Source of the DNA: an uncultured Coriobacteriaceae bacterium | Lineage (GTDB): Bacteria; Actinomycetota; Coriobacteriia; Coriobacteriales; Eggerthellaceae | Direction of reading: 5' to 3' | DNA length: 64,000 nt | NCBI GenBank assembly: GCA_949294735.1 | Contig: CASFII010000007.1 | Location: forward strand, 62,001-126,000 | In this document: positions 16,177-49,272 of the stretch, piece by piece | Position numbering within the stretch: position 1 is the first letter of the stretch | Layout of the letters: every line of letters begins with the position of its first letter | The notes under the pieces: generated by a model | What the model was told of the DNA's origin: nothing | Seen by the model: only the letters and a program-made list of their open reading frames with translations | Database searches by the model: none | Made by a program: the position numbers and the translations under genes

Positions 16177-16232
16177 CAAGGGGACGTGTATTTTTGGTTC
16201 AAAAAAACCCAAAAGACACGTCCCCTTGGTTT
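16177..16232. repeat. Inverted pair of dispersed hairpin repeats
   Basis: One unit in reverse orientation (CAAGGGGACGTGTATTTTTGG, 16177-16197) faces a forward unit (AACCC, then AAAAGACACGTCCCC, TTGG, 16206-16232), so the pair can form a long stem. A further partial copy, AAACCAAGGGGACC, lies at 16158-16171. The array is between convergent genes. Confidence 0.7.
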
Positions 16233-37410: not shown

Positions 37411-37599
37411 GAGAGGAACCGCAACGTCCTCAGATTATAACCATGACAGCTCTCCGCTGAGCGACAGTGCTCAGGATATTCTCCTGAACCCCAGGTCACA
37501 CGCTGGCGGGAACCCTCATGTGCCTTCGGCGATATCCCCTTTCAGTTCGGCGTTTCCCGACGCCTGAGCGAACCTACTTTTGAATATCGCGCCTCTGTC
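37411..37599 (-). promoter_or_regulatory. Lysine riboswitch
   Basis: Reading the minus strand, the conserved core segments occur in the proper order. AGAGGCGCGATATTCAAAAG with GTA opens the structure, GAAAGGGGATATCGCCGAAG follows in the middle, and ACTGTCGCTC with GGAGAGCTGTCA comes near the 3' end. The closing helix pairs AGAGG with CCTCT. These match the lysine riboswitch class (L box) closely. It lies about 48 bases before the NhaC-family gene, which should be repressed when lysine is abundant. Confidence 0.93.
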
Positions 37600-37612
37600 A
37601 TTCAATTTTCAA

Positions 37613-37687
37613 TGGAGCGGGTGACGGGACTCGAACCCGCGAATAATGGCTTGGGAAGCCATTGCCTTACCACTTGGCGACACCCGC
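37613..37687 (-). tRNA. tRNA-Gly (anticodon CCC)
   Basis: The minus strand folds into a complete cloverleaf: a 7-bp acceptor stem (GCGGGTG/CACCCGC), a short D arm, an anticodon stem ATGGC/GCCAT with the loop TTCCCAA giving anticodon CCC, and a T arm with GTTCGAGTC. Discriminator T and an encoded CCA end follow at 37613-37616. It sits just upstream of the lysine riboswitch on the same strand. Confidence 0.95.
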
Positions 37688-46313: not shown

Positions 46314-48014
46314 GTGAACGACGTACAGGAGCGCTTAGCAGAATGGCTGGAACACGTTACTGACGCTGAATTGCATGCGGAATTGGAGTCTTTGCAGAAC
46401 GCGGGAGACGTATCTGCTATCAAAGATGCTTTCTATCAGGACTTAGAGTTTGGAACGGCTGGTCTGCGCGGAATTATTGGGGCAGGCACCAACCGCATGA
46501 ACATCTATACCGTGGGACGTGCCACGCAAGGGTTCGCCAACTATCTGAATGAACATTTCGAAAACCCGACGGTTGCCATTGCACGAGATAGCCGCAACAA
46601 GGGCGAGGAATTTGTTCGCTTGGCTGCTGGCGTGTTGGCCGCAAACGGCATTACGGCATGGGTGTATCCGCGTATAGAGCCAACCCCCGCGCTTTCTTTT
46701 GCCGTGCGTGATTTGGGCTGTTCGGGTGGTATTTGCATGACGGCAAGTCACAACCCAGCACCCTATAATGGTTATAAAGCATACGGTCCTGATGGCTGTC
46801 AGATTACGTCTGAAGCTGCGGCGGCTATTTCTGCCGCCATTCAAGAAGTGGACACGTTTGCTGACGTGCGCTCCATGGACTTCGACGAAGCGCTGTCAGA
46901 AGAAAAAGTTCGCTGGATTCCAGAAGAGGTACTTGACCGGTTTATTGACGCGGTAGCTGCGCAATCTTTAGTGCAGCTTGAAGGAGCTCAGGCTGCAGAC
47001 GAGGAAGCACCCCTGAAAGTGGTGTATACGCCGCTTAATGGAACGGGCTTGGAATGTGTTTCCAGAATTCTTACGAAAGTTGGCATTACTGATGTGGTGG
47101 TAGTGCCTGAACAGGCTGAACCCGACGGGGATTTCCCCACGTGCCCCTATCCGAATCCCGAAATTCGTGAAGCACTGGAGCGCGGCATCGCCCTGTGCGA
47201 AGAAGTGAACCCTGATCTGCTGCTGGCAACTGACCCCGATGCGGACCGCGTAGGGGTTGCTGTTCACGATGGCGAAGATTACACGCTGCTTTCGGGTAAC
47301 GAAATGGGCGTCTTACTTTTGGATTACGTGGCCAAGATGCGTGTGGCCAGAGGCGAGGATTTGTCGCGTGCTATTGCGGTAACCACCATTGTTTCTTCTT
47401 CGATGGTGGATGCCTTGGCAAAGGAATACGGCTTTGTGGTACGTCGAGTGCTGACGGGCTTCAAATACATCGGTGAAGTCATTGGTCAGCTGGAGGCCGC
47501 AGGTGAGGCAGACCGCTTCATTTTCGGGTTCGAAGAAAGCTATGGTTATCTAAGTGGAACCCATGTGCGTGACAAAGATGCTGTTAATGCTTCCATGCTC
47601 ATTTGTCAGATGGCTCAGTACTACAAGCAGCAGGGTATGAATTTGGCTGACGCCATGCGTGCGCTGTACGAAAAACATGGTTACTTTAAGAATGCCACTA
47701 TTTCAGTTGAGTATCCTGGAGCCAGTGGCGCGGATCGCATGCGTGTCATCATGAAGAAAGCGCGGGAAGAAGCACCGGTTGAAATTGCTGGTTTGGATGT
47801 GACAGGTACTGTGGACTATGCGCCTGGTATTGGGGAATTGCCTCCTGCCAACGTGATGTCGTATCTACTGGAAAAGGGTAACAAAATTATGCTTCGCCCC
47901 AGCGGCACCGAACCGAAGATTAAGGCGTATATGTTTGCGCAGGACAAAGATGAGGCTCGTGCGCAGCAGCTATTGGAACGTCTGACCGCCGCCGCCCGCG
48001 AAATCTTAGCGTAA
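46314..48014 (+). CDS. Phosphoglucomutase/phosphomannomutase
   Basis: This 566-residue enzyme interconverts hexose 1- and 6-phosphates. The active-site serine lies in CMTASHNPAPYNGYKAYG, the magnesium loop is ATDPDADRVGVA, the sugar loop is FGFEESYGYL and the phosphate loop RPSGTEPKIKAY. The length and sequence match the long PgcA/PGM2-like type. It begins at a GTG with GAAGGGGAG upstream. It supplies sugar phosphates for cell-wall and surface polymers, which fits the flippase-like gene two genes upstream. Confidence 0.94.
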   Translation: MNDVQERLAEWLEHVTDAELHAELESLQNAGDVSAIKDAFYQDLEFGTAGLRGIIGAGTNRMNIYTVGRATQGFANYLNEHFENPTVAIARDSRNKGEEFVRLAAGVLAANGITAWVYPRIEPTPALSFAVRDLGCSGGICMTASHNPAPYNGYKAYGPDGCQITSEAAAAISAAIQEVDTFADVRSMDFDEALSEEKVRWIPEEVLDRFIDAVAAQSLVQLEGAQAADEEAPLKVVYTPLNGTGLECVSRILTKVGITDVVVVPEQAEPDGDFPTCPYPNPEIREALERGIALCEEVNPDLLLATDPDADRVGVAVHDGEDYTLLSGNEMGVLLLDYVAKMRVARGEDLSRAIAVTTIVSSSMVDALAKEYGFVVRRVLTGFKYIGEVIGQLEAAGEADRFIFGFEESYGYLSGTHVRDKDAVNASMLICQMAQYYKQQGMNLADAMRALYEKHGYFKNATISVEYPGASGADRMRVIMKKAREEAPVEIAGLDVTGTVDYAPGIGELPPANVMSYLLEKGNKIMLRPSGTEPKIKAYMFAQDKDEARAQQLLERLTAAAREILA

Positions 48015-48029
48015 ACTACAGAACCCAAG

Positions 48030-48262
48030 AACCCAACGGGGACGTGTTTTTGGGTTCTATGTCTTACGTGTAAAAATCACCCTGAAGCCCTCCAACTTCG
48101 ACGCGCTCCTACCGTTCGAAGCTAAAAGCTTCTCACTATGCGTCGCGCTGCTTCGCTTAACCTCTAAATATTAAAGTTTGAAGCTCAGACTTGTTTTCGG
48201 GCTTCAGGGTGATCAGCGTTTAAGCGTTTTCCAAAACCCAAAAAGACACGTCCCCTTGGGTT
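48030..48262. repeat. Nested inverted-repeat element between pgm and lysR
   Basis: Two dispersed hairpin repeats in opposite orientation (48030-48056 and 48235-48262) form the outer arms. Inside, ATCACCCTGAAGCCC (48076-48090) and GGGCTTCAGGGTGAT (48199-48213) are perfect 15-bp inverted arms about 108 bases apart, and GAAGC-TAAAA-GCTTC sits between them. No open frame of note lies inside. This layout suggests a small non-autonomous mobile element (MITE- or REPIN-like) or a folded RNA. Confidence 0.7.
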
Positions 48263-48270
48263 ACCTTGGG

Positions 48271-49197
48271 CTAAACAGGATATGCGCGGACGGTGGGGTT
48301 GCTCGCTGCCCCTTCGCGTAGCTTTTCAATGTAGCGCAGTAGCAAAGCACTTGGTTTGCGTTCGCGATGCATGATGTATCCAACCTGCATAAGCGCATCA
48401 GTATCCAGCGGAATAGATACAATACCCGCATGCATTTCCGCAGATAACACGCCCGTAGAAAGCGTGTAGCCGTTGTGGTTGGTCAGTAGATTCGTCAGCG
48501 TCCCGCGGTCTGAAATGTGAATCTTCTGCTTATGAGGCAGGTAGCTAAAAGGTTCTTCGGCGTAGTAGAAGGAATTTGTAGTCCCCTGTTCAAATGAATA
48601 GCGTGGGTAATCTTCCAGATCGGAAGCCTTCAATCGCTTAGCGCTTGCCAGCGGATGTCCTTCGCCCACAAACACATGCACACTTGCGTCAAAGAGGGGG
48701 GTATACACCACATTGGCGTCGTCGAAAGCCTTCTGCAGAACGCGGCGGTTGAAATCGTCTGTATACAGAATACCCACTTCGCTGCGGAACGTACGCACGT
48801 CTTCAATGATTTGGCCAGTGGAACATTCGCGCAGGATAAATTCGTATTCACTGCCTTCAGTTTCTTCAACGGTTTGCACGAAGGCTTGCACGCTAAAGGC
48901 GTAGTGCTGCGTAGAAATTGCCAGACGCGCATGGTCGGACTGGCCATGTGAATAACGATTTTCCAGCATGTCAGCTTGCTCAATAACTTGGCGTGCATAA
49001 CCTAAAAGTTCGGTGCCGTCGTTGGTGAGGGTGACCCCGCGGTTGCTGCGGCGAAAGATAGTAATGTGCAGTTCCTGCTCCAGTTCCTTAATGGCGGTGG
49101 AAAGGTTGGATTGCGAAGCGTACAGATTCTGAGCTGCTGCGTTGATGGATCCGTATTCCGCGATGGCAATTAAGTATCTCAGTTGTTGTAATGTCAT
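48271..49197 (-). CDS. LysR family transcriptional regulator
   Basis: This 308-residue protein has an N-terminal winged helix-turn-helix (2-60; YGSINAAAQNLYASQSNLST), a linker helix (about 60-88) and a two-lobed effector domain (from about 91). The start is the ATG at 49197, with AAAGGAT upstream. It is divergent from a CoA ligase, the usual layout for a LysR and its target. The protein encoded at 50803 resembles its effector domain closely. The ligand may be an aromatic acid or its CoA ester; this is a guess from the neighbour. Confidence 0.93.
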   Translation of the reverse strand: MTLQQLRYLIAIAEYGSINAAAQNLYASQSNLSTAIKELEQELHITIFRRSNRGVTLTNDGTELLGYARQVIEQADMLENRYSHGQSDHARLAISTQHYAFSVQAFVQTVEETEGSEYEFILRECSTGQIIEDVRTFRSEVGILYTDDFNRRVLQKAFDDANVVYTPLFDASVHVFVGEGHPLASAKRLKASDLEDYPRYSFEQGTTNSFYYAEEPFSYLPHKQKIHISDRGTLTNLLTNHNGYTLSTGVLSAEMHAGIVSIPLDTDALMQVGYIMHRERKPSALLLRYIEKLREGAASNPTVRAYPV

Positions 49198-49272
49198 GAC
49201 TATCCTTTCGCTTGTCCGCAAAGGGACCTTAGCTTTTTTGCTGTAAGCCGAACGGTGTAATGGTGTAATTCT

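Follow-up and report, generated by a model that had tools for sequence, protein, structure and literature searches.

On balance, and with moderate confidence, we regard the nested inverted repeat of about 230 bp at positions 48030-48262 of the window as a non-autonomous, dispersing foldback DNA element, which appears to conserve the way it folds and not its sequence. This interpretation draws on the dispersal of the element, on a conserved structure with two-sided base changes, on presence and absence at one site, on the concerted change of paired arms, and on the lack of any excess of wobble pairs. The window is a stretch of 64,000 nt from an uncultured Coriobacteriaceae bacterium (Eggerthellaceae), corresponding to positions 62,001-126,000 on the forward strand of contig CASFII010000007.1 (assembly GCA_949294735.1).

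The element occupies the gap between the stop codons (48014 and 48271) of two convergent genes: a phosphoglucomutase/phosphomannomutase-family gene on the left (46314-48014, +) and a LysR-type regulator gene on the right (48271-49221, -). Two facing copies of a palindrome enclose a 138-nt foldback module, whose architecture is a P1 stem capped by a three-way junction (P2 and P3) with conserved CTAYCG, CTATGCG and TCAGA stretches (Table 1). The initial annotation had described two dispersed hairpin repeats facing each other around a separate, perfect inverted pair, with no gene inside. Both pairs are present where it had placed them: the outer symmetry comprises 48024-48051/48242-48269 (28 nt, 75%) and 48044-48056/48235-48247 (92%), and the inner pair (48076-48090/48199-48213) is perfect over 15 bp. 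Its predicted folding energy is -104 kcal/mol, where shuffled sequences average -63 (z = -9.1, with none of 200 shuffles as good), and no open reading frame of 80 aa or more lies within the interval, in agreement with the gene-free interior. As a description, nested pairs are nonetheless incomplete, as the inner pair forms the base of the three-way junction and the module is itself dispersed.

Table 1. Parts of the window copy, and the second REP pair of the window.
Feature	Position	Strand	Remarks
Left REP-like palindrome, outer arm	48030..48058	-	family of ~97 matches
P1 stem, 5' arm	48076..48090	+	ATCACCCTGAAGCCC; class A stem
P2 stem, 5' arm	48103..48109	+	GCGCTCC; covarying
Conserved TACCG (CTAYCG) motif	48110..48114	+	
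P2b apical hairpin	48115..48135	+	
Conserved CTATGC motif	48136..48141	+	
P2 stem, 3' arm	48142..48148	+	GTCGCGC
J2/3 and 5' part of P3	48149..48158	+	TGCTTCGCTT
P3 loop	48159..48176	+	AT-rich; hypervariable
P3 stem, 3' part	48177..48184	+	TTTGAAGC
J3/1	48185..48189	+	TCAGA; invariant in own-genome alignment
P1 stem, 3' arm	48199..48213	+	
Right REP-like palindrome, outer arm	48235..48262	+	
Second REP pair of the window	16180..16225	.	facing; module-free

Each outer arm is a REP-like palindrome similar to AACCCAAAAGACACGTCCCC-TTGGGTT. With as many as 3 mismatches allowed, CCCAAAAGACACGTCCC has 97 matches in the 1.34-Mb genome versus 8 for the reversed pattern, which bears out their claimed dispersal; copies are found singly, as close facing pairs, or as pairs 60-350 bp apart. 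By eye, no striking GTAG tetranucleotide was found at the REP ends in the arms read. The arrangement by which a REPIN is recognised, two facing REP palindromes with a spacer, recurs in many copies, with spacers ranging from approximately 10 to 270 bp, and facing pairs without a module occur at 16180-16225 and in L059. The former, a close facing pair, is itself a minimal REPIN-like hairpin. Facing pairs of this kind, some of them module-free, are what a plain REPIN or BIME would look like, with the REP arms as the element and the inner module as a passenger or spacer, but we consider this very improbable: modules stand free of REP arms in their own genome (L015, L019 and L022) and in the Slackia copies that were read, and they are conserved across genera, whereas the REP arms are restricted to the window's genome among the 138 genomes of the family. 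Because Slackia copies lack the REP arms, the module is separable from them, and the label 'REPIN' is therefore incomplete.

BLAST recovered approximately 25 near-full relatives of the interval from its own genome, and a covariance model indicates approximately 36 modules there (38 matches, a few of which double on one long-form copy). The initial annotation had proposed a search of the genome and its relatives for copies of both pairs of arms, and had held that inner arms unique to this site and fixed in place would argue for a regulatory structure. This genome does not show that pattern: the module is dispersed in it, as are the REP arms, and modules, not REP arms, are present in other genera. 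Compared side by side, the own-genome copies have a conserved core in common, while their P1 stems fall into five or more unrelated versions: class A, to which the window copy belongs, classes B (GAGTGTAGGCAGCTGGGTT) and P (GTGCTTGCCCTTAAACC), and no fewer than three versions seen in one copy each. Modules of classes A and B frequently lie tail to tail, and a long form, with the P2/J2-3 junction segment swapped for extra hairpins (CGTCCTGCCCGACAAGCGGGCAGGAC and others), is found on both types of stem (L021, L023, L048, L050, L057 and L058). That stems of both classes carry the same segment swap suggests recombination between them. Among own-genome copies the AT-rich P3 loop varies at 35-38% of positions, compared with 1-15% in the neighbouring core. 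The loop is almost identical in L003 (class A) and L002 (class B). Two class P copies, L010 and L015, adjoin an apparent 5S rRNA at contig ends.

Beyond this genome, BLAST with the interval found no match in 59 relatives. Model R1 found one homolog, in G130, with the same locus found by pattern scan in Slackia isoflavoniconvertens DSM 22006 (Eggerthellaceae); model R2 gave 32 matches in S. isoflavoniconvertens, 11 in G137 and 3 in G126; and model R3 gave 7 in G126, together with one or a few copies each in other Slackia genomes and in two additional genera. The E-values of these models are rough, and inspection reveals the full architecture in some weak R3 matches. Stricter filters were applied whenever more than 40 genomes were searched, and absence therefore counts for less than presence. 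In Slackia, P2 and P3 show strong covariation, and most copies have a P1 of their own, generally of 20-56 bp. Furthermore, two loci of G152, which belongs to another genus (L183 and L189), are divergent relatives with long, locus-specific stems in which CCGCTGCTCGCTTCGCTCGTGCGCTGCG replaces the core; given these, the class may extend beyond the reach of the models.

The junction is maintained by two-sided changes. P2 comprises seven pairs directly outside TAYCG and CTATGC, and in the window's genome it exists as GCGC/GCGC, GTCC/GGAC and GCAA/TTGC versions; many copies contain a TC/TC tandem mismatch within it. An earlier set of 23 rows, one of them from Slackia, held 20 two-sided cells for P2, and a set of 40 sequences with more Slackia copies held 73, with only 2 wobble cells. 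For these 40 sequences the P2 covariation score was matched by none of 500 shuffles, and slid pairings scored much lower. The P3 stems covary too, by inspection. An early pairing of P2 as CGACGC/GCGTCG was dropped, as it showed no covariation whereas the GCGC pairing did, and a first MAFFT alignment was discarded along with its RNAalifold result, as class B was misaligned.

Within P1, change is concerted. At two sites common to two species (L163/L203 and L160/L169), P1 forms 26/27, 30/30, 32/33 and 30/31 pairs, and both arms differ between the species, with entire blocks replaced in part; changes also affect the apical hairpin and P3. L170/L171/L181 represent one more common site. Such joint change of arms is a recognised outcome of template switching during DNA replication, which on its own can produce double changes with no wobble stage in between, RNA genes included (PMC8794818). 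This mechanism can account for the matched P1 arms; selection is still needed to explain the conserved unpaired motifs.

Conserved unpaired motifs and strongly covarying stems are also the classic sign of a structured RNA, and the initial annotation had offered a long folded RNA as an alternative. Each module would then give rise to a small RNA or form the 3' end of the mRNA next to it, with a junction that binds a protein, or that protects or ends the transcript. The stable fold, the covarying stems and the position of most copies behind genes suit this proposal, but we judge it unlikely, given the scarcity of wobble pairs and the mixed strand orientation. In P1, scored on related copies with stem ends taken from local alignment, 31 mismatches are G-T and 51 are A-C (p = 0.035); a single working RNA strand would be expected to have G-T above A-C, and the deviation for this RNA strand is in the opposite sense. 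Relative to tandem genes, 25 copies have the same orientation and 18 the opposite (p = 0.36, for related copies and gene calls from a simple hexamer score). Additionally, several copies (L002, L004, L008, L011, L140, L142 and L149) lie beyond what by eye appear to be ordinary intrinsic terminators, and Rfam 15 covariance models run over the element gave no match, either at the gathering score or at E up to 1. Because wobble pairs are not favoured and orientation is unbiased, the working form is more likely to be folded DNA than one RNA strand. The wobble test is no proof of a function as DNA, since template switching also removes wobble intermediates.

The initial annotation had likened the element to a MITE or REPIN mobilised by a transposase elsewhere, and had proposed looking for empty sites and target-site duplications. 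An empty site was found at one Slackia locus. The G137 element L162 sits between two genes that relatives have in the same order, and it is missing from this gap in G126, where both flanks align across a short spacer, and in five other Slackia genomes, of which four have a short spacer in the gap and G131 an unrelated longer one. This absence from close relatives points to a probable recent gain, at one site in Slackia, the window's genus being represented by a single genome in the set. The empty site has no palindrome, and therefore the whole hairpin was gained. The idea that cores insert into ready-made palindromes, raised by the locus-specific stems, was thus unsupported at the one site tested. 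Between L162 and its G126 paralog L159, the core and inner P1 are common, while the outer P1 is locus-specific and complementary within each locus.

Target-site duplications gave no signal: the mean longest flanking repeat was 5.0 versus 4.83 in mismatched flanks (69 of 300 as high), for element ends that are not sharply defined, and a TAAAC found close to each end of the window copy was not significant as such a duplication. A search for the Y1/RAYT transposase (PF01797), positive in control genomes, gave no match in the window's genome, of which 86% is present, and in Slackia the presence or absence of PF01797 is unrelated to module copy number; Y1 transposases are accordingly not the evident mobiliser. 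What stands of the mobile reading is the many copies, the facing REP-like arms, the intergenic sites and the Slackia polymorphism, and what speaks against its MITE- or REPIN-like form is the lack of both these signals together with the REP-free modules.

Most copies are intergenic and behind genes, and divergent gaps are avoided (0 of 31 own-genome copies and 2 of 34 Slackia copies); among the neighbours read, genes are varied and housekeeping-like by eye, with no common partner. A preference for gene 3' ends, avoidance of divergent gaps and retention at sites common to Slackia species would suit a DNA site useful to the host, such as a cruciform or supercoil sink or a BIME-like site for a nucleoid or gyrase-type protein, spread by occasional duplication. 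This we hold to be quite improbable, as the position bias is expected of any tolerated insertion, L162 was gained in one species only, and copy number among Slackia species runs from 0-1 up to 32, so that there is no general need for the element. Retention at sites common to species nevertheless also fits a useful role in place, and counts against the mobile foldback element that we favour.

For that element, three parts of the mechanism are our inference: that the working molecule is DNA, that an enzyme acts on it, and that template switching takes place. The unit would be a hairpin, a P1 stem capped by the three-way junction with its conserved core, and the recognised form may be single-stranded or extruded (cruciform) DNA, read through the CTAYCG/CTATGCG internal loop and the junction. 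A putative enzyme would recognise this folded shape and insert further copies into intergenic sites, most of them behind a gene. Once a copy is in place, template switching from one arm to the other would maintain complementarity while the sequence drifts, such that shape would outlive sequence. In the window's organism, the module lies between two facing REP-like palindromes and has been amplified jointly with them as a REPIN-like unit of approximately 230 bp. We propose only tentatively that this is a selfish element selected for its single-strand shape, a DNA three-way junction served by a putative novel enzyme, with stems rewritten locus by locus by template switching and only the junction core kept. 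The more than 70 copies in several species provide a natural series of long hairpins that change both arms together. This series makes it testable whether near-perfect inverted repeats persist through selection or through template switching, and what moves palindromic repeats without a RAYT transposase. If folded DNA is the substrate, the partner enzyme would be new.

The element appears to be previously unlisted, with no convincing Rfam family, plasmid or phage match. A strict core pattern had no match in all GTDB r220 species and IMG/VR; a looser one matched Slackia, 12 stretches of unrelated organisms (approximately 14 expected by chance, by our own estimate) and 4 viral contigs. Searched against plasmids and phages, a Slackia-type consensus gave one weak partial match and no phage match, and a literature search, whose coverage lacks most subscription journals, yielded nothing about Slackia repeats or about REP elements of Eggerthella.

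Several known systems share some of its features. Bcr1-type stem-loop repeats are non-coding, intergenic, foldable, multicopy sequences of about 150 nt, and the module resembles these and other stem-loop sequence families in each respect, but by description its core differs from that of bcr1, its Slackia stems are locus-specific, and two-sided changes preserve its three-way junction from one genus to another. With the REPINs and REPs mobilised by RAYT (TnpA-REP) it shares facing short palindromes, intergenic location, dozens of copies, species-specific amplification and non-autonomy; unlike them, it has no RAYT/Y1 found in its 86%-complete genome, and it encloses a 138-nt three-way junction found REP-free in other genera. 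MITEs with terminal inverted repeats are likewise small, non-coding and dispersed, with inverted ends, but here no target-site duplication signal is seen and the stem ends of Slackia copies are not conserved. As an analogy only, integron attC sites act as folded single-stranded DNA in which shape outweighs sequence, but attC ends are conserved and the tip variable, whereas the module has a conserved tip on a variable stem. CGTC-tagged palindromic repeats are short head-to-head palindromes, seemingly without a dedicated transposase, and are defined by an unpaired CGTC at one palindrome end (PMC3733652, whose text has no mention of Actinobacteria). The outer arm contains ACGTCCCC, a link to these repeats, but its CGTC is internal to the palindrome. 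Elsewhere in the window, a lysine riboswitch lies directly beside a tRNA gene at 37439-37687 (-) (Rfam RF00168 and RF00005).
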